Of a stretch of 64,000 bases of DNA, positions 3,736 to 50,086 are shown piece by piece. The position numbers were made by a program, and so were the translations under genes. The notes beneath the pieces are model-generated. The model made no database searches, was not told the DNA's origin, and saw only the letters and a program-made list of their open reading frames with translations. The stretch is from NCBI RefSeq assembly GCF_000333955.1, contig NZ_CAPS01000144.1:1-64000 (forward strand). The letters are read 5' to 3'. Source of the stretch: Rhodococcus sp. AW25M09. GTDB taxonomy: Bacteria > Actinomycetota > Actinomycetes > Mycobacteriales > Mycobacteriaceae. The first letter of the stretch is position 1. Each line of letters starts with the position of its first letter.

Positions 3736-5121
3736 TCAACTGAGCAAGCTCTGCACTCCGACTCCGACAAGGTCTCGGGAGGTTGGTGGGGTGACCGCAT
3801 TGCCGCACATCCGCACGTTGCGTTGCTTCGTTCCACCGCATAGCACGTAGGTCGACGCGAATCCCATTGCGCATTGGAGCTCCGGTACGTCGAGCATTCT
3901 GAAGCACAGGTCTTCGACAGCAAACGAACGCCGTGTGGTCTTCCGGTGGTGAGTGGCCGCGGGAACGACCAAGCCATGGTGGTTACCCGATGCCGTCACG
4001 GTGCAGAGAGCGTCGCTGACCGATCGCGCAGTCGAACCTCCACCTCGTAGCTCTGCGATGAACGGGGTGATCACCGCATGATGGCGGCCGCCCGCGGATA
4101 CGGTCGAGAGCGCCTCCGAGGTTCGATGATTCTTCGACTGGCCCCGCAGCACCGACACGAACGCCGGGGCCCGCCCCTCAGACGGCCGTGGGCTTGCCTG
4201 CCGATACTCGAACAGCGTGCCCGCGGATTCTCTCGCGTCCTCGGCATGCGGAGCTGCCCAGTACCGGTCGATGCCGGCCTGGATTCGTGCGATCGTTTTC
4301 GGCTTCAGTGGACGAGTGCGGTCCCCGATTCGCTGGCCGGTCTTGGTCCAGTCGATGATGGTCGAGGCGGGCAGCCAGTCGGGCTCGAGCACGGTATCGG
4401 CACACGCACGTGCGGGGCACCGGTAGGAGTACTGGCTGCGGTACTTGCCCACGGCCACCGCTGGGTTCTTCCAGGCTTGCAACGCACGCACGGGCCCGCA
4501 GCGAGAGCAGGTTGCCGGCGGACGGACCGCGGTCTCGAAGTCAGGTGCCCGGTTGCCGGCCTTCCAGAAGCACACGTAGACGCGATCGCGGGACTGCGGC
4601 GCTGGTGTCCCGAAAGTCCATGAGTGCATCGAATTCAGGCAAATGAGGCGATGTTCGTAACCGAGGGCGCGCATCGCCGCGATCCATGGCCTGTAGAGAG
4701 GCCATGAGTAGATCTCGACGACGTTCTCGACGAAGACCAATTCGTATCGGTGATACTCGGTGAACCGAACGACGTCCCACATCGTCGCCCTCGATCGCTC
4801 GGCGGCCTCGGACGGTAGGTCGTCGGACAGCAACGAGATCTGCGCGGCGAGGCGCTTGGCCCCGCGTGCATTGGAGTGCCAGGTGCATTCGGGGCTGAAC
4901 CATCCGATTGTCGTGCGAGGAAACAGCTTCGGAGTGATCTGAGAGAGGTCCGCGAGGATGTGCTCGGTGTGCTGGTGGTTGTATTGGTGCGTCTCGATTG
5001 CTTTGTCCCAGTGGTTCGATGCTGCCGATACTCTCACCCCGGGGATGGAGATCATGCCGGTCGTGGATCCGCCGGCACCGCAGAAGAAGTCCGATGCCGT
5101 GATGTCGAGCGATCCTTTCAT
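3736..5121 (-). CDS. C5-cytosine DNA methyltransferase, phage type
   Basis: The protein has 461 residues. The start is the ATG at 5121, which overlaps the upstream TGA (ATGA); an upstream ATG is less likely. Motif I is DFFCGAGGS (about residues 11-19, SAM binding) and a motif VI-like ENVVE is present. The motif IV position reads FSPECTWHS (about 75-83), so the presumed nucleophile Cys79 is preceded by Glu instead of the canonical Pro-Cys-Gln. I recall this SPECT-type loop from actinophage methylases. Central CxxC motifs (TCSRCG, then CPARAC) suggest a zinc-binding insertion. It is the last gene of the minus-strand array and sits directly after the DUF5131-type gene. No cognate nuclease is adjacent, so anti-restriction or orphan methylation is likely. 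Confidence 0.85.
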   Translation of the reverse strand: MKGSLDITASDFFCGAGGSTTGMISIPGVRVSAASNHWDKAIETHQYNHQHTEHILADLSQITPKLFPRTTIGWFSPECTWHSNARGAKRLAAQISLLSDDLPSEAAERSRATMWDVVRFTEYHRYELVFVENVVEIYSWPLYRPWIAAMRALGYEHRLICLNSMHSWTFGTPAPQSRDRVYVCFWKAGNRAPDFETAVRPPATCSRCGPVRALQAWKNPAVAVGKYRSQYSYRCPARACADTVLEPDWLPASTIIDWTKTGQRIGDRTRPLKPKTIARIQAGIDRYWAAPHAEDARESAGTLFEYRQASPRPSEGRAPAFVSVLRGQSKNHRTSEALSTVSAGGRHHAVITPFIAELRGGGSTARSVSDALCTVTASGNHHGLVVPAATHHRKTTRRSFAVEDLCFRMLDVPELQCAMGFASTYVLCGGTKQRNVRMCGNAVTPPTSRDLVGVGVQSLLS

Positions 5122-6074
5122 CGGCCGGCTCCGTCGGGCGTGCTGTCCCACACCCGTCGGTCGAGGATCCGGCCGGCGGCCTTACGGCCGACTCGTCGAA
5201 CTTCGGTGCCGTCGTCGAAGTGGTGGTAGTCGCGGAATCGGGCGATCACCTCCGCTGGTGCCCACTCGCCCCACTGCTTGAACAGGAAGGGCACATCGGC
5301 AGCGGTGCACTGGTCCCGGATATCTCGTACCCATCGCGGATGCATCGGCCGTGCCTCGCGGCCTGACTCACCGCCGACGATCACCCAGTCGAGCGCTGGT
5401 TCGAGCTCGCCGCCGCATTTCGAGTCTTCGACCGGACGAAGCCCGTCGCGAGTCAGCGCTCCTCCGATTCTGCTGGGTCGTAGGCGCGTGAAGTCGATCG
5501 GTCCGAGGAGCGGTTCGGCAGAGACGAACCGAAGAGCTGCAGGCGTGTCCAGCAGCGCCCATACTCGCAGGTCTGCAGTCTTCTGGTCTTCGGCCGAGAC
5601 GCCGATCCACAGGTTCGGCAGGGGCCAGCTCTGGTACCAGACATCGGCGGGGCGGAAGGCTGCGACGACACCTGCGATGGCGTCGTCGACGGCGCGGCGG
5701 AAGGCATCGGACTGGAGCAAAGACCGCATCCGAGCGGGTCTCTTGGTGAGCAACTGAAAGGTGTGCTGGCGGGCGAGCGCGATCACCGCGAACACCCTGG
5801 CGATGTAGTCGTCCGGGATTGCAGGGTGGAAGAGGTCGCTCATCGAATTCACGAAGATCCGGCGTGGTCGGCTCCATCGCAGCGGCTGGTCGAGCTTGCC
5901 GGGGCGCATCTCGACGTCGAATCCGTGCTCGAAGTAGTGCCCCGGTGTGCCGCGGAACCGCTCAGCGAGGGTTTGGGCGTAGCAGTGATCACATCCCGAC
6001 GAGACTGCGGTGCAGCCGGTGACCGGGTTCCAGGTTGCGTCGGTCCATTCGATGGCCGTGGCGTCGCCCATCAT
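5118..6074 (-). CDS. phage Gp37/Gp68-type protein (DUF5131 family)
   Basis: The protein has 318 residues. The N-terminus carries the family signature IEWTDATWNPVTGC followed by CX6CX2C (GCTAVSSGCDHCYA, about residues 20-33). IFVNSMSDLFH and FQLLTKRPARM follow, and WIGVSAEDQ and IVGGESG lie further on. These are the conserved blocks of the phage Gp37/Gp68 (DUF5131) proteins. The three cysteines resemble radical-SAM or metal-binding clusters, but the activity is not established as far as I know. The start overlaps the preceding small gene (ATGA at 6071-6074) and the stop overlaps the methyltransferase start, so the three are translationally coupled and probably act together on DNA or nucleotides. 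Confidence 0.8.
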   Translation of the reverse strand: MMGDATAIEWTDATWNPVTGCTAVSSGCDHCYAQTLAERFRGTPGHYFEHGFDVEMRPGKLDQPLRWSRPRRIFVNSMSDLFHPAIPDDYIARVFAVIALARQHTFQLLTKRPARMRSLLQSDAFRRAVDDAIAGVVAAFRPADVWYQSWPLPNLWIGVSAEDQKTADLRVWALLDTPAALRFVSAEPLLGPIDFTRLRPSRIGGALTRDGLRPVEDSKCGGELEPALDWVIVGGESGREARPMHPRWVRDIRDQCTAADVPFLFKQWGEWAPAEVIARFRDYHHFDDGTEVRRVGRKAAGRILDRRVWDSTPDGAGR

Positions 6075-6999: not shown

Positions 7000-7316
7000 C
7001 GAACCGCCTCCGCCGGCAAGGCTGCGTGCCCGCAGCTTCCGCGCCGATTACCGTCCGAGTGATCTGGCCACCGATGCAGTAGTGCCAGGGTCAGCGCCGA
7101 GAAGGCAGCGAGCAACGTGCCGGCCAGGGAGACGACCAAGCTGACGGTGACCAGGTCCTTCACGATCGGCAGAGCCCCGTTGAAGATCGCGAGCATGCCG
7201 ACGACGTAGCCGACACACGCGAGCGCAACAGTGCGAGCCTCACGGCGGGCATCTTCGGCCGCGAGGTGGCGCTCTACGTCGTGGATGGCGCACTGTCGAC
7301 CAGATTGTGGGTCCAT
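6996..7316 (-). CDS. small membrane protein, two TM segments
   Basis: The protein has 106 residues from the ATG at 7316 (AAGGAC upstream). A longer frame exists, but the N-terminal extension looks non-coding. Two hydrophobic spans are seen, one at VALACVGYVVGMLAIFNGAL and one at VTVSLVVSLAGTLLAAFSAL, with a His/Asp-rich tail. It is coupled to the HNH nuclease gene by a 4-bp overlap. A role as membrane partner of that exported nuclease is a guess; no family is recognised. Confidence 0.6.
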   Translation of the reverse strand: MDPQSGRQCAIHDVERHLAAEDARREARTVALACVGYVVGMLAIFNGALPIVKDLVTVSLVVSLAGTLLAAFSALTLALLHRWPDHSDGNRRGSCGHAALPAEAVR

Positions 7317-7467
7317 CAGGGAGTCCTTTCGTAGTGGGCGCGGTGGCAAACGCAGTCCTGTACGGGGTAGATAGCGTGGCGGTGAGGTCTGTGACAGCTG
7401 GCCACTGAATCGCAACCCAGGAGAGTGCTCCTGTGGCCGCACCGTGCGGGCGATATGCGACCGGGTG

Positions 7468-8112
7468 TCACAAGCGTTGCGAGTTCGGGGCCGTCGGGTA
7501 CTGGTCTAGTGGCCGGTCGCCGGGATGGACCGGGCCGACGTTGCGACGCCACGGCCCGGTCAGGTAGTCGTAGTGCTCTTGCGTGAAATCGGAACCGATC
7601 AGATCTCGTGCGACCAAGCCTCGGCCGACATCGCGGGCAGCGACTCTGGCAGCCCCGCGGCCGAGGACGCCGAGCAGATTCATCGTCGCTGTGAGTTCGT
7701 GACGCCGATTGTCGCCGCAGGCCGCTGTGTGGGCAGCGTGCGTCGCCATCCGCCAGCGGGGTGCGCACCACCACGCGGCGCTGACCGTTTCCGGCGCCGT
7801 CTCCAGAAGATCGGACTCGACGTCGAGGGTGCGCGCCAACGCGAAGACCTGCCGCCATTGTGAGCCGAAGACCACCTCGAAGACGTGATCTGTCAATTCA
7901 TGGGCAGGAACTGTCGGCTGGAAGCGGTCGGTGGCGGTCGGGGTGGTAGCGAAATACGTCTCGGACAGACCGTGTTGCATCCGGCGATGGACTTCGCCGG
8001 CGATGGCCCGGTATGCCCTGCTGTTCGGGTTGCAGCCGGTACTGCCGGCAGGTTGTGCATGCGGTGAGAGGCGGACCGCCGGCGGCCGCGTTGTCGAGCT
8101 CGAAGATTTCAT
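7468..8112 (-). CDS. hypothetical protein
   Basis: The protein has 214 residues from the ATG at 8112, which has GGGAG 5 bp upstream; the longer reading from 8157 lacks support. It is soluble and mixed alpha/beta with a His- and Arg-rich central part (WCAPRWRMATHAAHTAACG). No signal peptide and no recognised domain. It belongs to the minus-strand array, but here small gaps rather than overlaps separate the neighbours. Confidence 0.55.
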   Translation of the reverse strand: MKSSSSTTRPPAVRLSPHAQPAGSTGCNPNSRAYRAIAGEVHRRMQHGLSETYFATTPTATDRFQPTVPAHELTDHVFEVVFGSQWRQVFALARTLDVESDLLETAPETVSAAWWCAPRWRMATHAAHTAACGDNRRHELTATMNLLGVLGRGAARVAARDVGRGLVARDLIGSDFTQEHYDYLTGPWRRNVGPVHPGDRPLDQYPTAPNSQRL

Positions 8113-8206
8113 GGGTACTCCCGTTTCTGTGGGACAGATGGTCGGTCTGTCGATCAATTTCTGACTGGTCTCTGTACCGCTATGCGACCAACAACGCGGC
8201 TCTATT

Positions 8207-8521
8207 TCACTCTGCTACTTCACTTTCCGATCTTTCAGTGCCGTCCAGCCAGTCACCGATCCTGCCGCGGACGGCGTCGCCACCAGGAGGATCGTCGTAG
8301 GCGTCTTCGAGCGCTCCCCGCGCCCCGGATGAGATGACCGCGAGATCGCAGTCACGTGTCTCGACCCAGTCGCCCCACGTCCACCCCCTTCCTGCGTCGA
8401 TATGAAATTGCGTCGCTGCTGCCGGAACACCGTCGACGAAGACTTGCGTGTGGGTAGGTCCGTCCGGATCGCGCACGACGATCACCTCGATCCGCGGTGC
8501 GGGGGCGAACTCTCTCGTCAC
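8207..8521 (-). CDS. hypothetical acidic protein, 104 aa
   Basis: It starts at a GTG whose last two bases form the TGA of the upstream membrane-protein gene (GTGA). The protein has a beta-strand-like first half (RIEVIVVRDPDGPTHTQVFV) and an acidic C-terminal half. No known motif. Tight coupling argues that it is a real gene working with its upstream neighbour. Confidence 0.6.
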   Translation of the reverse strand: MTREFAPAPRIEVIVVRDPDGPTHTQVFVDGVPAAATQFHIDAGRGWTWGDWVETRDCDLAVISSGARGALEDAYDDPPGGDAVRGRIGDWLDGTERSESEVAE

Positions 8522-9563: not shown

Positions 9564-10859
9564 CTACACGATGGTCGTGCAGTGCAGGGCGGCCATCAGG
9601 CCGGTGTGGGTGGCGTGAGCCGGGGATGGTTCGGCGTGGTCGAGGACGTGGGCGGTGGCGTCATCGATGACCACGGTCATGTGGGCTCGGTGGCGGGTGA
9701 GCATCACGCACGCTCTGCCGGGGTCGAGATTGAACGGCTCGGCTGTCCGGTACCCGGCAAGTGGGTGCAACACGACAACGGCGGCGCGTTCGAGGCCTTG
9801 CAGAGAGTTTGCGGTGCCGACCAGTACGTCGGGGTGATCCGAGAGCAAGGCCCGGACAGCGGCAGCCTGCGTGACATGAGGGACGACGACAGCCAGGTCC
9901 GCCGCTGTCATGGCCCGCTGTCCGTCCGGTGTGGTCACATCGGCGTCCAGCAGTTCTCGCGTGCGCTGGGCGCACTGTGTGGCCAGGACTGGGTCGGTTG
10001 GGCCTCCGATGACCCGCACTGGCCGATGTGCGAGTTCGGGCAGGTCGGGGCCGCTGGACTCGGTCAGATGCTCCGGTGGGCGACGGGAAGTGAAAGGCAG
10101 GCCGGGGTAGAACAGCGGTTGAATGAGGGCCGTTGTCCTCGCGCCGAGACGCCAGGTGTGTTGCAGACGGACCACGCCGACCGAGTCGCCGTGAGCTGCT
10201 TGCAGAGCGAGGGGGGCAGGCAGGTTCGGTGCGGTCTCGCTGTCCGACCACCGCGATACGTCTCCGGTGACCACCGGATCGATCTGTCCGGGGTCTCCGA
10301 CGCAGACGACCTGTCGAGCCATCGCGCCGAGCGCCCCCAGATCGGCGTAGGTGCATTGCCATGCTTCGTCCACGATCAGCACATCGGCACCGATTCGGTC
10401 CGGGTCCGAGAAGAGCCACCGCGCCGTGGTACCGATGAGAATTGCGCCAGTGTCATTCGGCCACCGCGATTTTCGTCCTGTCACTACGGGAGTGTTTCCA
10501 CTGTCGGGGAGGGGTGCTTTCGCCTTCCAGATCAACGCTGCTCGATCTGTCAGCGCGCCGAGCCGACGTGCGATTTCCACGGCTTGTTCTCGGGTTTGCG
10601 CCGCGATACCCACCCGGAGGTCTGCGCGATGGGCCAAGGCGGCGGCGAGCAACGCGACCAGTCGAGTCTTTCCTGCGCCCGGTGGTGACGGGACGACGAC
10701 GGCGGGGTCTCCGGACCACACGGAGAACAGCACGCGTGCAGTGATCGGGTCGGCCATGATCTGCGATCCGGGCCATTGGGCGGGCGACGACGGTTCGGTT
10801 CCCCTGAAAGGTGTTGCGTCGGATTTCGGGGTGTCCGTTTGGGGTGCGACGAAACGCAT
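9564..10859 (-). CDS. superfamily 1-type DNA helicase / AAA ATPase
   Basis: The protein has 431 residues. Walker A is PSPPGAGKTRL (about residues 58-68), Walker B is VLIVDEAWQ, followed by a motif III-like GDPGQIDPV, then motif V-like TANSLQGLE and motif VI-like MLTRHR. That order matches the SF1B/UvrD-Dna2-like helicase core in a compact form without obvious accessory domains. It may be a DNA helicase or an ATPase driving the activity of neighbouring proteins. It lies in the array with the MoxR-VWA pair, which suggests a shared multi-ATPase machine on the plasmid (inference). Confidence 0.8.
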   Translation of the reverse strand: MRFVAPQTDTPKSDATPFRGTEPSSPAQWPGSQIMADPITARVLFSVWSGDPAVVVPSPPGAGKTRLVALLAAALAHRADLRVGIAAQTREQAVEIARRLGALTDRAALIWKAKAPLPDSGNTPVVTGRKSRWPNDTGAILIGTTARWLFSDPDRIGADVLIVDEAWQCTYADLGALGAMARQVVCVGDPGQIDPVVTGDVSRWSDSETAPNLPAPLALQAAHGDSVGVVRLQHTWRLGARTTALIQPLFYPGLPFTSRRPPEHLTESSGPDLPELAHRPVRVIGGPTDPVLATQCAQRTRELLDADVTTPDGQRAMTAADLAVVVPHVTQAAAVRALLSDHPDVLVGTANSLQGLERAAVVVLHPLAGYRTAEPFNLDPGRACVMLTRHRAHMTVVIDDATAHVLDHAEPSPAHATHTGLMAALHCTTIV

Positions 10860-10909
10860 TGTTGTGCCGTTCTTCTTCTAATGTGTTGTCAGTGAACATT
10901 TTTGATCCC

Positions 10910-12112
10910 CTAGTGATCACGGGCATCCTCTGCACCCGCTATCAGGACATCGAGCGGGACTTCGCGGCGCACGGCGCTCGGGGCTTGTCCGGTCGAAAGC
11001 CAGGAACGGCGAGCGCGGTACAGATTCCAGTACCTCGCCCGTCCTGCTCGCATCGTCGCCGGTGAAGGCGGTTGGGGCATCAGGGTCACCTGGTCTCCGT
11101 CGTTCGGTGCGTGCGCTCCGACCGAGCCGAGACCGAGCGTCAGTTTGCCGTTGACCACCTGTGCGGACGTGACGTCGGCAGAGAAGCGCTCGAAGGGTTG
11201 ATCGAGCGGTGATCCGACCCATCCCGTAACTGCCGAATCAACCCGCATCCTCGAGTCCAGCCGGTCGCAGGTCACCGACACCGACACGTTGCGGCGGCGT
11301 GAACCTGTCGGCGGTGCCGCCACCGATGCGATGCCCTGGGCCACGCGTCCTGTATGCAGCGCACGTACTCGCCACAATGGATCACTCAGCAACGCAGCGG
11401 CTTTGAGGTCGGCGGCATCGCATCGGGTCCGCAGTCCCATGGCTGCACTAGCCGAGTTGTCCGGCCGTGACCAGTCGTGGCCCGCAGTCGCAGCCGACAA
11501 TGTCCGATCCCAGGAGTATCGGTCATCGTCGTGTATCGAATCGAGAAGCGGCAACAGCGGTCCCGTTGCGATGCACGCTGCCCACTCATGCAGGCCTGCG
11601 ACACTCTCGTCGGTAATGCCGAGCCAGTACCGCCATGTTCGGGCCGCTCGCTCGGCGTCGGGCGCAGTGCCGAGGACCAGATGCGAGGACGACGCAGCAA
11701 CCAGATCGATCACCGCCGACGTTCCGGGATGGTCGGCTCGATCGGCCCACCATCCGATCATTGCGGCAGCCCCCGCTATGTCCGGATCAGGGTGGTGGGC
11801 GTGCGCACGCGCCAGGGCCAGCAGGCTCGGTATCGTCCCGGCGTCATCGGTGAGCAGCATGGCCGGTTCGGCCGTACCCATTGTGGTTGCGCCGTTGCGA
11901 GCGAGCAGGGCCAGAGCCTCGGTGTCGTGCGCGGATTCTTCGGTGCGTCCATCTCGTGCGACGGAGACGAGCGCAGTTGTTCCTCGTGTGGCCGCACGCA
12001 CGGCCACGGCGGTCGTGGACGGCTTGAAGGTGGCGTGGGCGAGCCGAGGGACCGGTTGCATCTTCTCGGCGGCGTAGAGGCGTTGCGCGAGGTCGAACCA
12101 CTCCACGCTCAT
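10910..12112 (-). CDS. hypothetical protein, about 400 aa
   Basis: The ORF begins at an ATG overlapping the stop of the preceding 62-aa gene (ATGA at 12109-12112). The protein is alanine-rich and helical with conserved-looking tryptophans (WYW-type patches such as TWRYWLGITDE and YSWDRTLSAA) and a C-terminal beta-rich part ending in a basic RARYWNLYRARRSW segment. No known domain. Genetic coupling to the VWA/MoxR pair suggests a substrate or structural partner of that pair. Confidence 0.6.
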   Translation of the reverse strand: MSVEWFDLAQRLYAAEKMQPVPRLAHATFKPSTTAVAVRAATRGTTALVSVARDGRTEESAHDTEALALLARNGATTMGTAEPAMLLTDDAGTIPSLLALARAHAHHPDPDIAGAAAMIGWWADRADHPGTSAVIDLVAASSSHLVLGTAPDAERAARTWRYWLGITDESVAGLHEWAACIATGPLLPLLDSIHDDDRYSWDRTLSAATAGHDWSRPDNSASAAMGLRTRCDAADLKAAALLSDPLWRVRALHTGRVAQGIASVAAPPTGSRRRNVSVSVTCDRLDSRMRVDSAVTGWVGSPLDQPFERFSADVTSAQVVNGKLTLGLGSVGAHAPNDGDQVTLMPQPPSPATMRAGRARYWNLYRARRSWLSTGQAPSAVRREVPLDVLIAGAEDARDH

Positions 12113-12297
12113 CGCGCGTCACCGTCGACGAGGATCGCGGCGTTGCTTGCGCAATTCCACCCTGCGCGCAACGCCGTTGTGGCTGCATCGGCCGCTGCGC
12201 TGGCGACGACAGCGCGGATATCGGCGGCTGCGATTCCAGTGCCGGTGAGCACCCTGTCTGCGTACTTGAGCAGTTCCCCGGGTCCGGTTTCGTTCAT
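12109..12297 (-). CDS. small protein between VWA gene and 400-aa gene
   Basis: The protein has 62 residues from the ATG at 12297, which overlaps the VWA gene stop; its own stop overlaps the next ATG. It is alanine-rich and helical (ADIRAVVASAAADAATTALR). It is clearly one of a chain of four coupled genes. No domain recognised. It could be a small subunit of the same complex. Confidence 0.6.
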   Translation of the reverse strand: MNETGPGELLKYADRVLTGTGIAAADIRAVVASAAADAATTALRAGWNCASNAAILVDGDAR

Positions 12298-13553
12298 CGC
12301 GTGGCCCCCGATCCGACTGGCACGTGCACCGTCGATGCCCATGCCGGTGTGCCGCCCCTGCCCTGGACGCCGCCGATGATTGCGCACACCAGGTGCGACC
12401 TCGTGGGCCGGTCGGGCCAGGGTGTATCGCCATCGGTCAGCACCACGACGACGTGGGGTGCAGGGCGCGCAGCGTTGGCGGCGGCGATTCCCACCCTCAT
12501 ATCGGTTCCGCCACCACCGACCAACGTCACATCAGCGACCGATCGTACGTGTTGTGCCGTAGTGGATTTGGCGTCACACGCCAGAATCCGAACCCGGTCG
12601 CGTGCGATGCCACCAGCTTTGAGAACTCCCGCCACTTCGCCCATCGCGGCATCGAGGTCCGCGCTCGTCATCGACCCGGACGTGTCGATGACGAGCGAGA
12701 CCGTGATCGACGGCCCACGCATAGCCGGGGCGACGATTCCGGGAATGCGACGGCGGGAGGGACGGGAGTAAGAATAGTTCGTCCTACCCGCCTGCTCTGC
12801 CAACGCACGCCGAATTACGGCCCGTAGCAGCCGATCCCACGCTACCGTGGGCGGGGCGAGAACGTCAGCTGCCCACCGGACCAGTCCCGCCGGGGCACTA
12901 CCCCTACCGGTACCAGATGCTTCGCGAACTGCCTGCGCGACGGATCGGCGCACCAGGTCCGCTTCCGCATTGTCCAGCCCCTCCGTGATCACTTCTCCCG
13001 AGCCGATGAGTTCGCCGGGGACCGCAGGGCACCCCGATCCTGATCCGCATCCCGGATCGCCCTCAGCGCCAGCGAGTTCGGTGACAGTCTGATGCGCAAG
13101 CGGGTCACGCAGGTAGTCGTAGTACTGCTCGGCTGTGTCTCCGGAAAGGCAGCCGAATGATTGAGGGGTGATCACCCCTTCGGGCAGGCCGACTCCCGCA
13201 GCCAACAGGTCGTCGTTGATTTCGGCGTCGGCCGCGAAGTTCCACACCAGGTGATCGATGGGCTTCGCCAGAGCGGCGGCGCGGTCGGCGTGTGCCCGTA
13301 ACAGATGCCCGACCTCGTGCAGCAGCACTGCACCGACCATCGGCACCGGCCACGCGCAAGGCCCGACCAACAGATCCGGGTCCAGGTACAGCCGCCACCG
13401 GGCGTCGACCGCGAACGTACCCAGGCTCGGTGCCGCCACGGGTTGCGCTGCGAACAGAGCGCGCATGAAGTACGGCATGTGTTCGGCCGACACCAGCCGC
13501 GCGAGTCGGAACGCTCGCATTTCAGCCGGTTCGAGCTCGCGCACGCCGCTCAT
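12294..13553 (-). CDS. metallopeptidase-like / VWA domain protein (MoxR partner)
   Basis: The protein has 419 residues, starting at the ATG at 13553, which overlaps the MoxR gene stop. The N-terminal half carries an HExxH motif, VLLHEVGHLLRAHADR (about residues 76-91), as in the DUF2201-type putative metallopeptidase domain. The C-terminal ~150 residues form a VWA domain with the MIDAS motif DTSGSMTS and later VLTDGDTPW. MoxR ATPases are known to pair with such VWA proteins as metal- and ATP-dependent chaperone-like systems. It is coupled to its neighbours on both sides. The intact HExxH suggests proteolysis is possible. Confidence 0.85.
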   Translation of the reverse strand: MSGVRELEPAEMRAFRLARLVSAEHMPYFMRALFAAQPVAAPSLGTFAVDARWRLYLDPDLLVGPCAWPVPMVGAVLLHEVGHLLRAHADRAAALAKPIDHLVWNFAADAEINDDLLAAGVGLPEGVITPQSFGCLSGDTAEQYYDYLRDPLAHQTVTELAGAEGDPGCGSGSGCPAVPGELIGSGEVITEGLDNAEADLVRRSVAQAVREASGTGRGSAPAGLVRWAADVLAPPTVAWDRLLRAVIRRALAEQAGRTNYSYSRPSRRRIPGIVAPAMRGPSITVSLVIDTSGSMTSADLDAAMGEVAGVLKAGGIARDRVRILACDAKSTTAQHVRSVADVTLVGGGGTDMRVGIAAANAARPAPHVVVVLTDGDTPWPDRPTRSHLVCAIIGGVQGRGGTPAWASTVHVPVGSGATR

Positions 13554-14650
13554 GCAGCTGCCTCGACCAAGCCCGCTGCCACCAGCATCGGCGCAAATCG
13601 GCGCGCGCTGGCCGGAACGGAGGCCTTCGCGGGTCGCGCTTTCGCCAGAGTTCGTGCCGCAGCCCCGGCTACGTCGGGCGCTCCTGCCTCGGCGGCGGCG
13701 ATCAGCGGACCCCACGCGTTGCGCCACGCTTCGACGGTGCCGCGCGAGGCCGCCCACGCCGTCACGCCGGACAGCACTGCCCACACCAGATCAGGGCGCG
13801 AGCGCCAGTCGAACGCTGTCTCGGGGTTTTCGATCACGGCTACGGGGTCAGGGAGGTCGGCATTGCGACGCCATTCGAGGAACTCGACACCGGTGCCGTC
13901 TCCGATCAGACCGAACACCACCGCGTTGGTCGCGGCATTGTCGTCGTCACGAAGATGCGGCAACACCTTCGCGAGCATCGACCAGGTGCGCCGAGACGGC
14001 CATGCTCCCCCTGTCTGCACTCCGACCTTCGGGAACGCATCGAGCGCCTCGGGTGCACGCTGGATGTACCCGATGATGGAACTGCGCACCAACGCCTCTC
14101 GCTGCTCGTCGGTGGTCACCGCACGCGACGAGGCGGTGCTTGCCCATCCTGTCGCCATGCCGTCGAGCCATTCATCGACAGACGGCGTGAACTCGATGTG
14201 GCAGAAGCGGTTTGCCAAGGGGGCCTCCAACTCGTACCCCCCTGCCGCGCAATCGGGCGGATTCGCGCCCGCGATGACCCGCGTTCCTTTCGGTAATTGC
14301 AGATCACCCACCTTCAAATCCAGTGCGACTGCCAGCATTGCCGCCTGAACGGCCGGTGGGCTCGTGGTCAGTTCGTCCAGAAAGAGGTAGCCCCCACCCT
14401 CGGCATGTAGTCGTCGCGCCCAATCCGGGGCCTCCAACCTCACACCGCTCTCACGGACAACCGGCAATCCTGCGAAGTCGGCAGGCTCCCGCAAGGACCC
14501 CAAGACTGTTTCGCACAACACCCCTTCGGATGCAGCAAGTGCTCGAACCAGGCTCGATTTGCCCATACCTGGACCTGAGATCAGCAAGGACGGGACACCC
14601 GCCCTTCCGCACGCGTCCACAACAGTTACCGCAGTCGCCAAATCCGGCAT
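13550..14650 (-). CDS. MoxR-type AAA+ ATPase
   Basis: The protein has 366 residues from the ATG at 14650, which follows AGGAG with 7-bp spacing. It has Walker A GPGMGKSS (about 26-33), Walker B YLFLDELTT, and sensor-like RVIAGANPPD with an arginine-containing LANRFCHIEF. These are the hallmarks of the MoxR/RavA-like AAA+ group. The role would be ATP-driven remodelling of protein targets together with the VWA/HExxH protein encoded next to it. It is the first gene of the long minus-strand array, with the hairpin 14747-14795 just upstream. Substrate is unknown. Confidence 0.85.
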   Translation of the reverse strand: MPDLATAVTVVDACGRAGVPSLLISGPGMGKSSLVRALAASEGVLCETVLGSLREPADFAGLPVVRESGVRLEAPDWARRLHAEGGGYLFLDELTTSPPAVQAAMLAVALDLKVGDLQLPKGTRVIAGANPPDCAAGGYELEAPLANRFCHIEFTPSVDEWLDGMATGWASTASSRAVTTDEQREALVRSSIIGYIQRAPEALDAFPKVGVQTGGAWPSRRTWSMLAKVLPHLRDDDNAATNAVVFGLIGDGTGVEFLEWRRNADLPDPVAVIENPETAFDWRSRPDLVWAVLSGVTAWAASRGTVEAWRNAWGPLIAAAEAGAPDVAGAAARTLAKARPAKASVPASARRFAPMLVAAGLVEAAA

Positions 14651-14746
14651 TGAAAAGCTCCTCGAAAGATGGGCAAGATGGTCAGTCTCACCAACAACAG
14701 AACGCCTCAATCATACCGCGTACAAGCGCATTTCACCCGCCGTAGC

Positions 14747-15955: not shown

Positions 15956-16675
15956 TCAGTGGGGCGTCCATGGCATGCATACCTCGCGCATTCTCGATCG
16001 GTGCATATGCGGTGGCCGTATCGCGCCTCGGCCCACACCGCCTGTTTCAACTGTTGGCCTGCCCTGCAGGCAGATGCGTGGGCTCAGGCGACCGAGGTGG
16101 CCGTTGGGATGGAGATGGCCGGCCGACCAGGCATCGATGTCGACGGGCTGCACTTCCCATCTGAGCACGTGCCCCTCGCCCTGGCTGCGCTTCTTCCCGA
16201 TCGCATCGATCGAGGCCAGCGTTGTGCTCACTCGGTCGATGTCGCCGACACCTCTCCAGAGCACAGTCCGCGTGGAGGTCAGCAGGAGCGGCATTTGGCG
16301 CGCGCGATACCGGCCCTGTCGGTCGGAGATGACCGACGGTCGGTACCTCGCGAGTTGCTCGAGCGCACGGTGGTCGGGACGGCCGCTCCAGTGATGAATC
16401 TCCGGGGCGTCGGTCCCGTCCTCGGGATAGGCACATGTCGCGTACCAATGCCAGTCGTCACCTCCCGCCAGAGTGCATCGAGCGAGTGGTAGATCCAGAT
16501 CGGCCGGGACCTCGTCTGGGCCCGCTGCTTCGAGGTAGTTTCCGCGATCGCGCGCCGCGGCTTTCTCGTCTTCCCACATCTCAGATGCGAGCAGTCCATC
16601 GAGGCTGGTCGCCCACGGGGCTGCATGCGCAAGTCCAGTCGCCAGGTGTGCTCTCACCTCGAACGGTGTCATCAC
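15956..16675 (-). CDS. csf3: Csf3, Cas5-like subunit of type IV-B CRISPR-Cas
   Basis: The protein has 239 residues. Identification rests mainly on position: it is the fourth gene of a csf1-cas11-csf2-csf3 operon, the standard type IV order, and its length fits a Cas5-like RAMP. It starts MMTPFEVRAHLATGLAH, which would be the first RAMP strand. A Ser/Arg-rich middle (RQGRYRARQMPLLLTSTRTV) and a VLRWEVQPVDIDAW segment could form the ferredoxin-like fold. Type IV Csf3 proteins are expected to cap the 5' side of the guide RNA and have little sequence conservation. The ATG overlaps the csf2 stop (ATGATG at 16670-16675). The polar C-terminal 50 residues look disordered. Confidence 0.75.
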   Translation of the reverse strand: MMTPFEVRAHLATGLAHAAPWATSLDGLLASEMWEDEKAAARDRGNYLEAAGPDEVPADLDLPLARCTLAGGDDWHWYATCAYPEDGTDAPEIHHWSGRPDHRALEQLARYRPSVISDRQGRYRARQMPLLLTSTRTVLWRGVGDIDRVSTTLASIDAIGKKRSQGEGHVLRWEVQPVDIDAWSAGHLHPNGHLGRLSPRICLQGRPTVETGGVGRGAIRPPHMHRSRMREVCMPWTPH

Positions 16676-17532
16676 GTCAGCGCCTCCATTACTGCTAGCG
16701 CCTCGTCCCGGTGCTCACGAAGGTGGGCACGCCAGTCGAGCTCGTTCGGCTCGTCGCCGGCGAGGAGGGTCCGCTTGAATCTAGTGCGAACCAGGCCGTG
16801 CCCGATCGCTGTACGCCCGCCGATGGTTCCGGATTCTACGAAGGCGTCAACGACGTCGGCGAAGAACGCCGCGTCCAGATCGGTCGCGCGATCGAGACGC
16901 AGGAAGGACTCGAATCGTGTACCAGCAGGCAGTGTTTCGATCTCGTATCGCATCAAGGAACTGCCCTCGACCGAGGCTTCGTCGGTTCGGGCGACTGTGG
17001 GAAAGTCATGATCGGTGGAATCGTCGAACCGGCTGTACCGTTCGAGAGCCATCGTGTCGAATTGGCTCAGGACAGCACGGTCTGGTGCGGGCCGGGTCAT
17101 GAGGTGGTCGGTTTCGAGGACGTGTGGGATGACTTTCCCCACGCGGAGACAGCCGTCGATCATCCGCCCGCCACCGCTGCCTCCGAACACGCTGATCTGG
17201 GGGTTCAATGCCCGAAGCCGATGGAGCCGTTCGCCGGACAGTGGCTCTCCGGTGACCTTGGTCAGGCTGCCCCCGTTCCGGAGTGTGTGTGCCGCGGACA
17301 AGCTGAGAAGCCCTTCGTATGCCAGGGCGTCCCGCAACAACTCCTCACCGATTCGGCGGAGCGCGCCTCGGAAGGAGTTGCCCGACACTATCGGCACCAA
17401 GGCCGCGGACCCGTTGGGCTGCAGTATCTTTTCGCGACGGAACAAGGTGGTTGTGGTAGCGCTGTGTTCACCGCGGTGCGAGATCGCCGAGACCGCTGTG
17501 ATGTCGAGCTGCCAGCGCAGGGTTGAGGTCAC
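16672..17532 (-). CDS. csf2: Csf2, Cas7-like backbone subunit of type IV-B CRISPR-Cas
   Basis: The protein has 286 residues. RAMP/Cas7 hallmarks are present: an N-terminal strand LRWQLDITAVSAISH, then IVSGNSFRGALRRIGEEL (about residues 48-65, the Cas7-like core helix after a Gly turn) and a C-terminal glycine-rich loop, GTIGGRTAIGHGLV (about 234-247). These match Csf2 and Csm3/Cmr4-like proteins. In type IV complexes Csf2 polymerises along the RNA. Its ATG overlaps the cas11 stop and its stop overlaps csf3. It is the most confidently recognised member of the locus. Confidence 0.85.
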   Translation of the reverse strand: MTSTLRWQLDITAVSAISHRGEHSATTTTLFRREKILQPNGSAALVPIVSGNSFRGALRRIGEELLRDALAYEGLLSLSAAHTLRNGGSLTKVTGEPLSGERLHRLRALNPQISVFGGSGGGRMIDGCLRVGKVIPHVLETDHLMTRPAPDRAVLSQFDTMALERYSRFDDSTDHDFPTVARTDEASVEGSSLMRYEIETLPAGTRFESFLRLDRATDLDAAFFADVVDAFVESGTIGGRTAIGHGLVRTRFKRTLLAGDEPNELDWRAHLREHRDEALAVMEALT

Positions 17533-17978
17533 TTCTGCCTCCTGGGCGATGTCGCAGCCTTCGTGGTGGACCGGAGCGCTTGAACAGCCTCTGCCACGAT
17601 TCGCGTTCGGAGAACGAGAGCAGTGGTGTTTTCCCGCAACAAGGTCAGAACCGGGATCGAGTCCTCGCGCAAGAGGACCGATAGTTCGAGGCGCTGTTCC
17701 TTCGTCGACGGCGCTGACTCGAGATCAGTCGCCACGGTGCTCCACCAACGATCGAGGTCGGCTCCACCGGTGTAGGTCGCGACCCGAACTCGGTCTGGCA
17801 GATGATGGTCCCAGTACAACTCCCTTCGGCGGCCCACCCACCCGGTATCCCAGTTGATCCCGTAGTGCAGGAGCAGCAACAGTCGTTCAGCTGTGGCCGC
17901 AGCGCCTGTGACCGGCGGCAGAAAGTTCGCTGCGTTCAACCAGGTTTGGGTCGGCGTCGCAGCTCGGGTAGGCGTCAT
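17529..17978 (-). CDS. cas11: Cas11-like small subunit of type IV-B CRISPR-Cas
   Basis: The protein has 149 residues, starting at the ATG at 17978, which overlaps the csf1 stop. It is alpha-helical throughout (AAATAERLLLLLHYGINWDTG and later repeated helices), as expected of a Cas11 small subunit; such proteins have little sequence identity. The position between csf1 and csf2 is that seen in type IV-B loci of actinobacterial plasmids, where a Cas11-like helical protein joins the Csf2 filament. The basic C-terminus (STTKAATSPRRQK) may touch RNA. Confidence 0.7.
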   Translation of the reverse strand: MTPTRAATPTQTWLNAANFLPPVTGAAATAERLLLLLHYGINWDTGWVGRRRELYWDHHLPDRVRVATYTGGADLDRWWSTVATDLESAPSTKEQRLELSVLLREDSIPVLTLLRENTTALVLRTRIVAEAVQALRSTTKAATSPRRQK

Positions 17979-18664
17979 GCCGCCCCCCTTTTGGACGTTG
18001 AGGCCGTCGCCGCGAGGTCGAGATACACAGTCCGCTCCCGCCAGGGGCCAAGGCGGTCCCAATCCGCGAATACCGACGACCACGCACGATGCGGAATGGC
18101 CTTCAAGGTGCCGAATGCTGGCGCTGCGCGCGCAAGAGCTGTCACGGAAAACCCGCGCCGTCGCAATCGGACGACTGCACTCAAGCGTTCCGCGTCGTAC
18201 TCGGTCCACGGAAGCGCAACGTCATCGACTGCTACGCGGCCCCACAGAGCATGAGGGAGAACATGCTTACGCCCGGGACGTAACGGGACCACGACGGCAG
18301 AAGTTGAAGAGATTGCCGTTCCGAGAACGCTACGCAAGCGGGTCTTGGACAATTTGGTCGCGCACGGAGGGTCACTGGTGACCAGCATGAGATCCGAGCG
18401 AAGTGCCGTGGTCGAGTACACCCAGACGCAGACGCGGCACATCGTGGGAGCTGCGACATCCACCCACCCGTCGAACCCTGTGAACGTTCTCGACACAGTC
18501 TCACGCACTCGCCGGCCGGCACCTTCTGTCGCGCGCCCGCACCTCGCGCACGCGGTGTCACCCGGAACCCCGGCCGACACCCACGAAACCGGGGATCCTG
18601 TTGCGGCGACGTAGGCAGTCGTCACAACATCGAGTAACGCACTGCCCCTTGATAGTTCGACCAT
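17975..18664 (-). CDS. csf1: Csf1, zinc-finger large-subunit-like protein of type IV-B CRISPR-Cas
   Basis: The protein has 229 residues. Two CxxC pairs, CARC (residues 39-42) and CRVC (76-79), separated by 33 residues, form the zinc finger that defines the small Cas8-like Csf1. A basic, beta-rich C-terminal domain follows (VVPLRPGRKHVLPHALWG, then RRRGFSVTALARAAP). It is the first gene of the csf operon. A GATATAGT box lies about 10 bp before the ATG and could be a -10 element with a very short leader. There is no Csf4/DinG helicase in the window, which places the locus in subtype IV-B rather than IV-A. Confidence 0.8.
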   Translation of the reverse strand: MVELSRGSALLDVVTTAYVAATGSPVSWVSAGVPGDTACARCGRATEGAGRRVRETVSRTFTGFDGWVDVAAPTMCRVCVWVYSTTALRSDLMLVTSDPPCATKLSKTRLRSVLGTAISSTSAVVVPLRPGRKHVLPHALWGRVAVDDVALPWTEYDAERLSAVVRLRRRGFSVTALARAAPAFGTLKAIPHRAWSSVFADWDRLGPWRERTVYLDLAATASTSKRGAA

Positions 18665-18728: not shown

Positions 18729-20348
18729 TCACCAAGGAGTCGGACCGGATGTTGGCGCGTGCCGGCCGACGTTGGGAGGAAAGTCGTCGGCCAGCAAAGC
18801 GGCTAGCTCCACGAACGCGCGTTGCGCAGGCTTGCCCAGCAACTCGAGATCGATTGTGTCCCCTTCGGCGAGGTGGTCGTCGTACGGAACTACCTGCACG
18901 GCACGAGTCCGCTCGGCGAAGTACGACTCGAGCTGCTCGATATCCAGGGCCGTCGAGCCCTTCCGCGATTCGTTGATGACCACGACGGTGCGTTTGACCA
19001 GGTCATCGAAACCGTGTCGCGAGAGCCATTCGAGGGTCGCCCCCGCGCTGCGTGCCCCATCCTTGGCAGCGGACGAGACCAGGACCAACGCGTCGGCTTC
19101 TTTGAGTACTCCCGCCATCGCCGAGTTCATCAGACCAGTGCCGCAATCGGTCAAGATGATGTTGTAGAACGATTCGAGGATGCGCAGTGCGGCGATGTAG
19201 TCGCGCTCGTTGAATGCTTCCGACACAGACGGATCACGTTCGCTTGCAAGCACTTCGAGCCTGCTTCGCGCCTGCGAGGTGTAGATTCGCACATCCGAGT
19301 AGCTGTGTACTGCTTTGTCTGCCAGTAGATCTCGAACTGTGCGGTCGCTGTCTCGGTGAATACGGTAGGCAAGAGTTCCGAAATCCGGATTGGCGTCGTA
19401 GGCAATGACGCGGTCACCACGCAGTGCGGCAAAGGTCGATCCGAGACCTGTTGTCGTCGTGGTCTTGCCGACCCCACCCTTCATCGACAGGACTGCGATC
19501 TTGTAGTTCCCTCGGACCGGTTGACGCACTCGCCGAGTGAGTTGTTCGTACTCGAGTTCGGCGGGCGACTGACCGGGATTAGCGGTGCCGAACGAGAGTC
19601 GGTAGAGCCATCGTCGCCAGCCCTTGCTCGGCGGCAATTGGGCACGTCGGATCAGTTCGATCTCATCGATCGACCGTGGCGACGCAGCAGGGGCAGCTGT
19701 CGGCACGGTCGCACGCTCCGGCGCTACGAATTGAACAGGCTGCGAGGTGAAGGGGCGACGAACTGTCACTGCCTGAGAGTCGGGGACGGCACTCTGCTCC
19801 GGGCGAGCCACCGGTGCTGAACTGCTGTTCGACTCGTCACCGAGCCACTCCTTGGCGGACTGCGCGGATCCACTCTGCGCTCGGCGTGCCGGCTCAGACG
19901 ATGCCCGGTCCGGTATGGGCGGGTGATCATCGTCGGCTCGTGGCGGCCACGGGATCCTCGCGGACCGGAGAGCATCTGTGTCTGCCTGCCTCTGGGTCGA
20001 GGTGTTGGGCACGTCGTTTAGCCGGTCATTCGGTGCGAGTTCTGATGCGACATCAGGTGCGTTTTTTGATGGGTTTTTGGACGCACTTTCTTGCACCCCT
20101 TCATCCGCGTTGTCGGATGCGATTCGAGGTGCGTCGATTGGCACGAACTCACTGGCTGGGGGGAGTTCCCGGTCTGCCGACTGCCCGCCAGAGCGGTGGA
20201 CGGGGGCTTGATCCTGCCCAGTGGGGCGATCTCCTGACTGCACTTCCGGGCCAGAGGCGACCGGCTCCTCGGTCGATTTGTGCGCCGCCGACGGATCGAC
20301 TACCCACCGGGGCAGCGCGCTGCCTGTATCGGACTCTGCGGGACTCAT
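18729..20348 (-). CDS. ParA/MinD-like ATPase with long disordered N-terminus
   Basis: The protein has about 539 residues from the ATG at 20348 (AAGAGG upstream; ATG 20375 is the alternative). The first ~270 residues are Pro/Ser/Ala/Asp-rich and probably unstructured. The C-terminal ~250 residues form a deviant-Walker ATPase, with SMKGGVGKTTTTTGLG, YDANPDFGTLAYRI (signature Asp) and DCGTGLMNSAM. This is close to MinD/ParA proteins linked to actinobacterial secretion or partition. It lies 64 bp upstream of csf1 on the same strand and divergent from the cysH-like gene. No ParB or centromere repeats were seen, so classical plasmid partition is not shown. Confidence 0.8.
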   Translation of the reverse strand: MSPAESDTGSALPRWVVDPSAAHKSTEEPVASGPEVQSGDRPTGQDQAPVHRSGGQSADRELPPASEFVPIDAPRIASDNADEGVQESASKNPSKNAPDVASELAPNDRLNDVPNTSTQRQADTDALRSARIPWPPRADDDHPPIPDRASSEPARRAQSGSAQSAKEWLGDESNSSSAPVARPEQSAVPDSQAVTVRRPFTSQPVQFVAPERATVPTAAPAASPRSIDEIELIRRAQLPPSKGWRRWLYRLSFGTANPGQSPAELEYEQLTRRVRQPVRGNYKIAVLSMKGGVGKTTTTTGLGSTFAALRGDRVIAYDANPDFGTLAYRIHRDSDRTVRDLLADKAVHSYSDVRIYTSQARSRLEVLASERDPSVSEAFNERDYIAALRILESFYNIILTDCGTGLMNSAMAGVLKEADALVLVSSAAKDGARSAGATLEWLSRHGFDDLVKRTVVVINESRKGSTALDIEQLESYFAERTRAVQVVPYDDHLAEGDTIDLELLGKPAQRAFVELAALLADDFPPNVGRHAPTSGPTPW

Positions 20349-20375
20349 CGGTCGCCACCTCTTCCTCTTACTCAT

Positions 20376-20536: not shown

Positions 20537-21403
20537 GTGGCGGTGCGCAGCAACGATTTCGACGGTCTCGATCTCACTCACTTACGGTCCCTTCGATCCC
20601 CGCGGCATAACATTTCGGCGATCATCGACCGTGTCGGAGAACACCTCGATAAATTCGACGGCTATGTCGCATTCAGTGGCGGAAAGGACTCGGTGGTTGC
20701 TGTTGATCTGGCCCGCCAGGCCGATCCAGATGTCCCGGTGGCATTTTTCGATTCCGGCCTCGAATATCCCGAGACCTACGCCTACGTCGAGCAGATTGCG
20801 ACGAAGCTGGGACTGGACTTGCATATCATTCGCGCTGAACCATCACTGCTGACGGTAATGGCCCGGACCGGGGAATGGGACCATCGCGGCATCCCATCGG
20901 CTCACGTGCCCGTACAAGGGTTCGAGACCTTGATCGCGCAGCCGGCCCGAACAGCACATGCCACGTTCGGCGACGGAGAAGTCTGGGGTGTGCGGGCAGA
21001 TGAATCCAGGAAAGGGACCGGCAGGTGGTCGATGTACTACTCGGCTCTCGCACGTGAGATCCGCGAACGCTGCCAGGGCACGAGCTGCTGCAGCAGCAGA
21101 GCCGAGCAGCGTCTACACCACGGGGGAACGATTCGACGCGCCGATGGAACCGTGGCGTACGGGCCAGTGTGGGATTGGTCGGCGGCTGATGTTCTCGCGT
21201 ATTCGCACCGGCACCAGCTGCCGACCAACCCTGTCTACGCCAAGCTGGCCGCCTTGGGCGCACCTGCAGCGAACCTACGCGTGTCGCACATTCTCGACGG
21301 GAATTTCCTCGAATCGGGCAAGATCACTCGCCTCCGTCGCGGTTGGCCAAGCTTGTTCGAGGAGATCGCCGCAGCGCTCCCTCGAATACGCGAATTCGTG
21401 TAG
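20537..21403 (+). CDS. CysH-like PP-loop protein associated with type IV-B CRISPR
   Basis: The protein has 288 residues. The PP-loop SGGKDS is at residues 47-52, followed by FFDSGLEYPETY and IPSAHVPVQGFE, as in adenylyl-sulfate reductase-like proteins. It has only three cysteines (C179, C184, C185), so it lacks both the paired CC...CxxC iron-sulfur ligands and the C-terminal catalytic ECG(I/L)H of assimilatory CysH. Type IV-B loci are known to travel with such a cysH-like gene of unknown role. GTG start at 20537. It is divergent from the ParA-like gene and followed by a strong terminator. Confidence 0.85.
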   Translation: MAVRSNDFDGLDLTHLRSLRSPRHNISAIIDRVGEHLDKFDGYVAFSGGKDSVVAVDLARQADPDVPVAFFDSGLEYPETYAYVEQIATKLGLDLHIIRAEPSLLTVMARTGEWDHRGIPSAHVPVQGFETLIAQPARTAHATFGDGEVWGVRADESRKGTGRWSMYYSALAREIRERCQGTSCCSSRAEQRLHHGGTIRRADGTVAYGPVWDWSAADVLAYSHRHQLPTNPVYAKLAALGAPAANLRVSHILDGNFLESGKITRLRRGWPSLFEEIAAALPRIREFV

Positions 21404-21459
21404 ATCGCCATATCGACTGTGCGCGTGTAGTATTGCCGACACTGAGATTGCACAGGGTG

Positions 21460-21499
21460 AGTCGGAGGCACACCACACGGTGGCCTCCGACTATTTTTT
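21460..21499. terminator. rho-independent terminator after the cysH-like gene
   Basis: A 10-bp perfect stem, AGTCGGAGGC / GCCTCCGACT, is followed by A and TTTTTT. The loop contains a further CAC.../GTG pairing. It separates the convergent cysH-like gene and the gene ending at 21544. Confidence 0.85.
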
Positions 21500-21543
21500 G
21501 CGTCGAGCCAGAGCCAGGAGATCTCACATCGGCCGATCGGCGG

Positions 21544-50001: not shown

Positions 50002-50086
50002 GGTCACCCCGATCAGCTAAGAACGCCTACTGGTTGTCGGGATCACCTCGTCCCCAGTAGCCATATGAGCAGCTAGAGTCACAATG

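Follow-up and report, generated by a model that had tools for sequence, protein, structure and literature searches.

A type IV-B CRISPR-Cas operon of Rhodococcus and a predicted small-RNA gene linked to type IV-B plasmids

The window analysed here, a stretch of 64,000 nucleotides from Rhodococcus sp. AW25M09 (contig NZ_CAPS01000144.1), carries at 15956-18664 an operon which by its sequence is a type IV-B CRISPR-Cas locus, csf1-cas11-csf2-csf3, a known kind of system (Table 1). What is new is a small-RNA element lying just outside this interval, which was not part of the original prediction. The list of open reading frames contains the four minus-strand genes exactly where they had been placed, and their announced overlaps are seen directly in the bases as 4-bp stop/start junctions at 17975-17978, 17529-17532 and 16672-16675. 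Given the overlap with csf1, cas11 starts at the ATG at 17978.

Table 1. Genes and predicted elements of the type IV-B region in the window
Feature	Position	Strand	Description and supporting matches
csf3	15956..16675	-	Cas5-like; PADLOC typeIV_Cas5 1.9e-96
csf2	16672..17532	-	Cas7 backbone; Pfam RAMPs 1.7e-7; PADLOC typeIV_Cas7 3.6e-114; 7JHY Csf2 7.9e-65
cas11	17529..17978	-	small subunit; PADLOC typeIV_Cas11 2.8e-60; 7JHY Cas11 5.8e-34
csf1	17975..18664	-	large-subunit/Cas8-like, two CxxC pairs; PADLOC typeIV_Cas8 3.4e-72
ParA/MinD-like ATPase	18729..20375	-	between csf1 and cysH; Pfam CbiA 1.1e-13
cysH-like PP-loop ATPase (CasCysH)	20537..21403	+	Pfam PAPS_reduct 1.2e-18
-10-like box of small RNA	21428..21433	+	TAGTAT; TANNNT at fixed distance across copies
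predicted small-RNA gene, 59 nt	21441..21499	+	conserved 5' segment, hairpin, T-run; fold z -5.3; covariation; IV-B plasmid linkage

The predicted zinc-finger character of Csf1 is visible in its two CxxC pairs, Cys39, 42, 76 and 79; among 37 aligned sequences Cys76 and Cys79 are invariant and Cys39 and Cys42 at least 90% conserved. The two best structural matches of its AF2 model (pLDDT 88.9), 7xg1_A (E 6.4e-4) and 8rc3_G (E 9.3e-3), belong to type IV-A effector complexes, not to an unrelated zinc-finger family; we take both chains to be Csf1. Csf2 contains the two expected motifs, GNSFRGALRR and GTIGGRTAIGHG, and its Pfam RAMPs match lies above the cut-off; it also weakly matches Csf2 of the IV-A structure 8RC3 (2.8e-4). 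For Csf3 the proposed RAMP identity stands in part: the Pfam scan gave no family, RAMP or other, whereas the PADLOC type IV Cas5 match is strong, and TIGR03116 is matched at 1.7e-8, below the cut-off of that model. With NCBIfam models, both Csf2 (49.4 for a cut-off of 130) and Csf3 (34.4 for 140) score below the cut-off.

The type IV-B assignment was borne out gene by gene, with a IV-B-type Csf2, Csf1, Cas11 and Csf3 in one operon and the cysH-like ancillary gene, as well as by a comparison of 41 loci sharing this gene set. The system resembles that of Mycobacterium sp. JS623 (7JHY), described in PMC7937560 as csf1, cas11, csf2 and csf3 on a megaplasmid without an array; Csf2 and Cas11 are sequence homologues of those in the window, although the csf sequences here are divergent. 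For the window's system we describe in addition a linked small-RNA gene and a gene c1.

Type IV-A, as presented in PMC8175902, has an array, Cas6/Csf5 and DinG, none of which was found here within the scans made. As PDB names the IV-B Cas11 'Csf4', the 'no Csf4' of the original prediction must mean no DinG; no DinG family turned up among the 28 window proteins scanned with Pfam. An exact-repeat scan of the window and 107 loci (1.12 Mb, including the contig's other 61 kb) detected no CRISPR array; it recovers a synthetic control array, while degenerate or two-repeat arrays would escape it. The models of cas1 and cas6e, the only ones run genome-wide, had no match in the genome of origin, in agreement with the claimed lack of an integration module.

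These data bear on the idea that the complex is loaded with crRNAs taken from the host's other CRISPR systems, which we consider hardly credible. In JS623 one megaplasmid does carry both IV-B and a type I-E system (PMC7937560), but, besides the result for the genome of origin, 20 of the 22 csf2 carriers among 401 related genomes lack a match to cas1 and 20 lack one to cas6e. IV-B carriers show no enrichment of cas1 (2/22 against 70/379 other genomes, p 0.39), and I-E crRNA was not enriched in the published complex, as reported in PMC7937560. Three partial or weak csf2 matches (G147, G203, G315) are excluded from these counts.

Locus gene content was taken from profile searches, an earlier gene caller having chosen antisense frames. 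By this means cysH was found in 39 of 41 IV-B loci, both absences being contig ends. The modelled CysH has the PP-loop ATPase fold of CysH/PAPS reductases, TtuA and TilS and shares their SGGKDS loop, which is invariant in 87 aligned homologues except for one Gly, itself at least 90% conserved. Unlike these enzymes, it keeps no cysteine column across IV-B loci (at most 19/39), and a cysteine-based role was rejected. The ParA-like protein was similarly rejected as a core component: present in 9 of 41 IV-B loci only, it is a neighbour in this sub-lineage only. A plasmid location is supported by the alignment of 68% of positions 1-25000, at 91.6%, to an R. fascians D188 plasmid record; the source contig measures 124,866 bp.

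The small-RNA element begins 37 nt past the cysH stop. Of 29 distinct copies, 27 have a TANNNT that starts 11-13 nt before the first base of the RNA (distances of 11-16 nt were tested), a motif placed likewise in 18 of 1217 background windows (1.5%). In the stem, three of ten pairs changed on both sides and 96.2% of cells are paired, compared with 33-56% when the alignment is slid. In three compared loci the element is 82-88% conserved, with csf genes that are about 64% identical. An own promoter, a conserved structure and a terminator are thus present as sequence features, and we consider 21441-21499 a predicted small-RNA gene. No repeat-spacer origin is apparent, the 5' segment being single-copy in its genome and the exact-repeat scan having found no repeats on the contig; Rfam had no match anywhere in the window. 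The position behind cysH and the final T-run would also suit a mere cysH transcription terminator. We judge this very unlikely, since conservation extends to the 19 nt before the stem, the -10-like box keeps a fixed distance and, on other plasmids, the element lies kilobases from cysH.

The RNA is present in 16 of 22 csf2 carriers and in 3 of 379 other genomes (Fisher 4e-21), or in 17 of 22 when another form of it, form III in G290, is counted; in the genus itself the figures are 7/8 and 0/29. Six RNA matches below 31 bits or partial (G119, G058, G347, G173, G303, G040) were excluded, by a line chosen after inspection of the list; the one in G119 resembles by eye a terminator behind a tRNA. 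Among 72,556 plasmid records, 46 of the 49 bearing the RNA belong to 64 listed IV-B records, the tally resting on the best 60 of 71 csf2 records and the best 60 of 65 cas11 records; weak matches outside Actinomycetota (two Paraburkholderia, one Haematobacter) are not among the 49. The RNA is common to IV-B plasmids of Rhodococcus and Mycobacterium, as judged from these sequences, and probably also present in two Micrococcales plasmids. A search of IMG/VR with one exact pattern of the RNA gave no match.

Three forms of the RNA can be distinguished, and the form largely tracks the Csf2 clade. In R. jostii RHA1, the two IV-B plasmids, pRHL2 and pRHL3, carry different forms (I and II), again matching Csf2 divergence. 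In form III the -10 box is found in all seven copies (six computed, one by eye), 5 of 21 stem pairs changed on both sides and 92.8% of cells are paired, against 40-59% when slid.

We propose that the four Csf subunits form a complex for which the predicted 59-nt RNA supplies the RNA on which it is likely built, a reading to which we give somewhat less than an even chance. The RNA of the type IV-B complex would then come from a dedicated small-RNA gene, and type IV-B would need no array because this gene provides it. Its 5' end would be set by transcription from the -10 box and its 3' end by the hairpin and T-run; with both ends so fixed, Cas6 and an array would be unnecessary. By analogy with the handle role of their relatives, Csf3 and Csf1 may recognize the conserved 5' end, while Csf2 and Cas11 would coat the RNA. 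Like a crRNA, this RNA is short, linked to a Class 1 effector and provided with a 3' hairpin and a conserved 5' end; unlike a crRNA, it is a single gene free of repeats and spacers, with ends presumably set by promoter and terminator. According to Zhou et al. 2021 (PMC7937560), Csf-bound RNA measures about 55-60 nt and the RNA recognized by Csf3 is called unknown.

Several observations count against this proposal. The RNA came to light in a comparison of IV-B loci, and the sequences behind model R1, or copies of them, are present in at least 10 of the 16 genomes with both RNA and csf2; the unbiased part of the association is the rarity of the RNA outside carriers. Plasmid co-inheritance could yield part of it. 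The RNA also occurs in three plasmid records (CP092102, CP003957, CP080955) and two genomes (G083, G225) for which no IV-B operon is listed; Csf1 found no match in CP092102. Possibly CP003957 and CP080955 are IV-B records outside the matches listed. No RNA was recognized in four csf2 carriers belonging to a single genus, presumably Gordonia, nor in Gordonia and Frondihabitans plasmid loci. Model R2, run on the Gordonia loci, gave no convincing candidate, and one promoter-hairpin candidate from a loose scan of Frondihabitans was left uncounted. Within a record the RNA may sit kilobases from csf, about 64 kb from csf2 in pRHL3. The main stem leaves only some 19-20 nt outside it, which is little for a Csf2 filament of six subunits. 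Form III shows no clear T-run, and its covariation measured by further pair types is not above shuffles (180/500). Finally, the RNA on which the complex assembled in E. coli was mixed (PMC7937560).

The last observation, RNA heterogeneous in sequence and uniform in length, would suit the hypothesis discussed in PMC8175902 that the Csf complex is a non-specific sponge coating any small RNA and blunting host RNA-guided defences. We find it improbable: the published construct, as described in PMC7937560, combined IV-B Cas proteins with a type I-E Cas6 and array, and a sponge leaves unexplained both why a linked RNA should covary and possess a -10 box of its own and why cysH and c1 are retained.

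Gene c1 raises a stronger objection. It occurs in 20 of 22 csf2 carriers and in 18 of 19 RNA-bearing genomes, a link to the RNA about as tight as that of csf2. In Rhodococcus the convergent c1 is often the nearest gene, within 6 kb of 26 of 31 copies, a count which uses a gene caller of the kind that chose antisense frames. In two mycobacterial plasmids, of M. intracellulare chimaera and Ca. M. methanotrophicum, csf1 flanks the RNA on one side, and on the other the RNA is directly upstream of a c1-sized gene, which is followed by a small gene and cysH; this arrangement suits our proposal as well. Together with the copies on records lacking listed csf genes, these facts would fit a plasmid regulatory RNA, controlling copy number, conjugation or c1/cysH, co-inherited with IV-B and not bound by Csf proteins. 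We regard this main alternative as a serious possibility, though we lean against it. Three observations speak against it, none of them decisively. In the sub-lineage of the window the RNA stays just past cysH while c1 is found at a distance of 12 to 72 kb or on a different contig. Of three copies in genomes without a Csf1 match, two (G225 and G058) have lost the -10 box and that of G083 has not. Lastly, the RNA form largely corresponds to the Csf2 clade.

If Csf proteins do bind the RNA, the ribonucleoprotein might benefit the plasmid by acting on a fixed nucleic-acid partner, together with the CysH-like protein, whose fold is that of ATP pyrophosphatases, and perhaps with the c1 product. Type IV-B would then be guided, without any array, by a single hard-wired RNA, loaded by Csf3/Csf1 through its conserved 5' end and working with CysH and c1 against one fixed target, a scheme we hold to be rather doubtful. 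The 21-nt 5' segment has no second or complementary site with up to three mismatches in its own genome. Since a 31-nt query gave E of at least 3 for the best 25 of 164 phage matches and of at least 2 for plasmid records outside Rhodococcus, we claim no target.

Which RNA type IV-B complexes carry is treated as an open question in PMC7937560 and PMC8175902; the small-RNA gene, if our proposal is true, would answer where they get it. The predicted IV-B-linked RNA offers a sequence that can be probed, deleted and co-expressed, and with c1 as a further candidate protein makes IV-B function testable in laboratory strains. For c1, no Pfam or PHROG family was found at E 0.05, and a PDB profile search gave non-significant matches only, among them 1ojq (E 0.72), a C3-type ADP-ribosyltransferase. 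PADLOC returned a single match, to IetS (E 0.0017), in one of nine c1 members.

The csf operon in the window is a type IV-B operon, of a kind already known and ordinary for that kind. The original prediction had read four overlapping minus-strand genes here, encoding Csf1, Cas11, Csf2 and Csf3, beside a cysH-like gene; the four ORFs do overlap by 4 bp at every junction, profile and solved-structure matches agree with the identities proposed, and the cysH neighbour is present. Csf2 and Csf3 score below the cut-offs of the NCBIfam models, as expected if these models describe type IV-A. Of the structures matching the predicted Csf1 (pLDDT 88.9), the two best are chains from effector complexes of type IV-A (7xg1_A, E 6.4e-4; 8rc3_G, E 9.3e-3), which we take to be Csf1, the search output giving no chain names. 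The contig measures 124,866 bp, and 68% of window positions 1-25000 aligns at 91.6% identity to one plasmid from R. fascians D188. Stretches from Rhodococcus sp. KRD162 (L001) and genome G030 (L100) match the window at 100% and 99.98% identity, a sequence likeness that suggests recent plasmid transfer or close kinship.

Features of the window and, in the last row, of the same contig beyond it
Feature	Position	Strand	Remark
DUF5131 protein	5118-6074		
MoxR-like AAA ATPase, VWA/DUF2201 metallopeptidase-like, 400-aa protein without assigned role, AAA_30 helicase-like genes	9564-14710		
csf1, cas11, csf2, csf3	within 15956-18664	minus	four ORFs; profiles and solved structures
ParA-like gene			between csf operon and cysH
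cysH	20537-21403		
Small RNA (predicted)	21441-21499	plus	59 nt
Type ISP-like restriction-modification protein	38731-42162		
Topoisomerase	43760-46147		
DNA polymerase III alpha-like protein	46438-50007		
c1	C23:82930-83787		L078, outside the window

Past cysH, the non-coding positions 21440-21505 share 82-88% identity with three other loci (L007, L008, L010), the csf genes of these loci being at ~64%. The small RNA predicted there opens at its 5′ end with a conserved ACTG; ~19 nt precede the main stem, and the 14-pair hairpin is followed by a T-run. Its 59 nt fold at -28.6 kcal/mol (z -5.3). In an alignment of 21 copies, pairing holds in 96.2% of stem cells and both partners vary in 3 of the 10 pairs; sliding the partner strand lowers pairing to 33-56%. 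A TANNNT box starts 11-13 nt ahead of the first RNA base in 27 of 29 distinct copies versus 18 of 1217 background windows, a count partly non-independent since this -10 box was spotted on the first 14 copies. The later-found form III carries it in 7/7 copies (six computed, one by eye). At L101:6996-7058, a second, weaker match (30.2 bits) lies 3.3 kb from the first.

The RNA co-occurs with csf2. Counting full-length matches of at least 31 bits to R1, a sequence model of the RNA, and as csf2 carriers the genomes whose best piece reaches at least 100 bits, we found it in 19 of 401 genomes of the family, namely 16 of 22 carriers versus 3 of 379 others; one of these three, G289, holds a Csf1 fragment. 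Another carrier, G290, has form III, bringing the total to 17/22. In the window's genus, the proportions are 7 of 8 carriers versus 0 of 29 non-carriers. The RNA was discovered in IV-B loci, and of the 16 genomes with both, at least 10 (G000, G003, G004, G021, G022, G217, G248, G255, G284, G299) contain a sequence used for R1 or a copy of one, so that the number of carriers with the RNA is in part built in. Its rarity outside csf2 carriers is free of this bias. R1 found no copy in the carriers G297, G367, G375 and G399, of one genus taken as Gordonia, and the RNA was recognised in neither Gordonia nor Frondihabitans loci; G017 (690 contigs), another carrier without R1 match, lacks a cysH match too.

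Among 72,556 plasmid records searched by blastn, some form of the RNA occurs in 49 at the limits used, and 46 of these are among the 64 listed IV-B records; in 15 listed IV-B records these searches gave no copy. One of the three exceptions, CP092102, has the RNA and no Csf1 match, and CP092100, a plasmid of the same strain, has csf2. For copies in genomes without Csf1 match, the -10 box is lost in G225 and G058 (150 of ~180 Csf1 candidates scored) and kept in G083. Two loci look like decaying IV-B loci: L147 (G248:C3:420001-440000) keeps cysH and the RNA with csf2 only as a relic, and L149 has csf1, cysH and the RNA without csf2.

Three forms of the RNA, labelled by eye and in some cases located on a different contig from csf or tens of kb from it, go with different ranges of Csf2 identity to the window protein: 54.6-100% for form I (ACTGAGATTGCAC...; 16 loci), 44.1-53.6% for form II (ACTGCGGATGCAC... 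and its close variants; 10 loci) and 44.1-45.9% for form III (ACGAAACGCACA...; 4 loci, and a further locus with a similar RNA at 40.8%), the form II locus L096 (44.1%) overlapping the form III range. Six loci have no form and two are unassignable. Form II-like RNAs also occur in two Micrococcales loci, L014 (28.4 bits with R1) and L013 (22.8 bits with R2, another model). In R. jostii RHA1, two plasmids that each have a csf2 differ in their RNA, pRHL2 having form I and pRHL3 form II; an extra form II copy on pRHL2 adjoins a cysH that has a csf2 relic only. Form III, as predicted by RNAalifold minus one small helix, consists of two hairpins in which 92.8% of cells are paired and both partners vary in 5 of 21 pairs, further pair types not exceeding shuffles; having no clear T-run, its 3′ end is less certain.

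We propose this small RNA as the one that the IV-B complex carries natively; at ~57-70 nt in forms I and II, its ends would be set by promoter and terminator. Such a dedicated RNA would account for the lack of both array and Cas6; most IV-B loci are presented without arrays in PMC12669027. The genes, the features of the RNA gene and the co-occurrence are seen in the sequences; we infer transcription, binding, target and the action of CysH and c1. In Zhou et al. (PMC7937560), IV-B Cas proteins co-expressed with Cas6 and an array of type I-E bound RNAs of ~55-60 nt and mixed sequence, clear Csf1 or Csf3 density was lacking and the RNA that Csf3 would recognise is given as not known. The agreement in length is only suggestive, since protein can also set filament length. 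Alternatively, the complex could take crRNAs from host CRISPR systems. This is not general, since cas1 and cas6e are rarely found with csf2: cas1 occurs in 72 and csf2 in 22 of 401 genomes, both in 2 (Fisher p 0.39), and cas6e matches in 2 of 22 csf2 genomes, one a short piece. The window's own genome matches neither model.

A plasmid regulatory RNA simply co-inherited with IV-B is the main rival and only somewhat less likely than the native-RNA reading. Co-occurrence of the RNA with csf2 on plasmids is confounded by shared descent, and its linkage with c1, a further gene co-occurring with csf2, is about as strong. Proteins like c1 (~295 aa) occur in all but two of the 22 csf2 carriers and also in G083, G241 (a fragment) and G289, making 23 of the 401 genomes. 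Nine loci (L015, L016, L095, L097-L099, L102-L104) have c1 directly beside cysH and co-directional with it; its product has no Pfam family, and a likeness to an ADP-ribosyltransferase is weak and non-significant (E 0.72). Plasmids of M. intracellulare chimaera and Ca. M. methanotrophicum carry csf1, cas11 and csf2 in one direction and, in the other, the RNA, a c1-sized gene (by size alone), a small gene and cysH; a cluster of four type IV-like genes is mentioned for mycobacterial plasmids in PMC10333696. Among the entries listed in searches of open-licence literature, none dealt in its title or the opening of its abstract with a IV-B small RNA or c1; as far as the search reached, both are undescribed, their novelty in print not being certain. 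The small RNA and c1 make a standing question on type IV-B testable.

The predicted structure of CysH (pLDDT 91.4) matches PAPS reductases, TtuA and TilS. Its SGGKDS loop hardly varies in 87 homologues, among the matches listed (120 of 526) and taken without selection for csf linkage, and no cysteine is conserved across 39 IV-B CysH loci; both agree with the ATP alpha-hydrolase chemistry suggested in PMC8175902. Across 41 IV-B loci, not all independent since some are mutual copies, csf1 is present in 39, cas11 in 40, csf2 in 41, csf3 in 40 and cysH in 39. Genes missing in L001, L006 and L099 fall at contig ends, and L096, without csf3, appears broken. Gene order differs: cysH is mostly divergent and upstream of csf1, is downstream and co-directional in L013, L014, L016, L097-L099 and L105, and csf3 or csf1 is set apart by at least 1 kb in several loci (e.g. 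L012, L082, L094, L106, L107). The cysH gene remains inside the compared stretch, and G261:C6 carries two complete loci (L086, L087) ~12 kb apart with one cysH each. In L107 an annotated HEPN-domain protein gene (7053-8327) sits between csf1 and cas11. Several Rhodococcus plasmids have the genes of window 9564-14710, among them the MoxR-like ATPase, conserved close to their csf operon.
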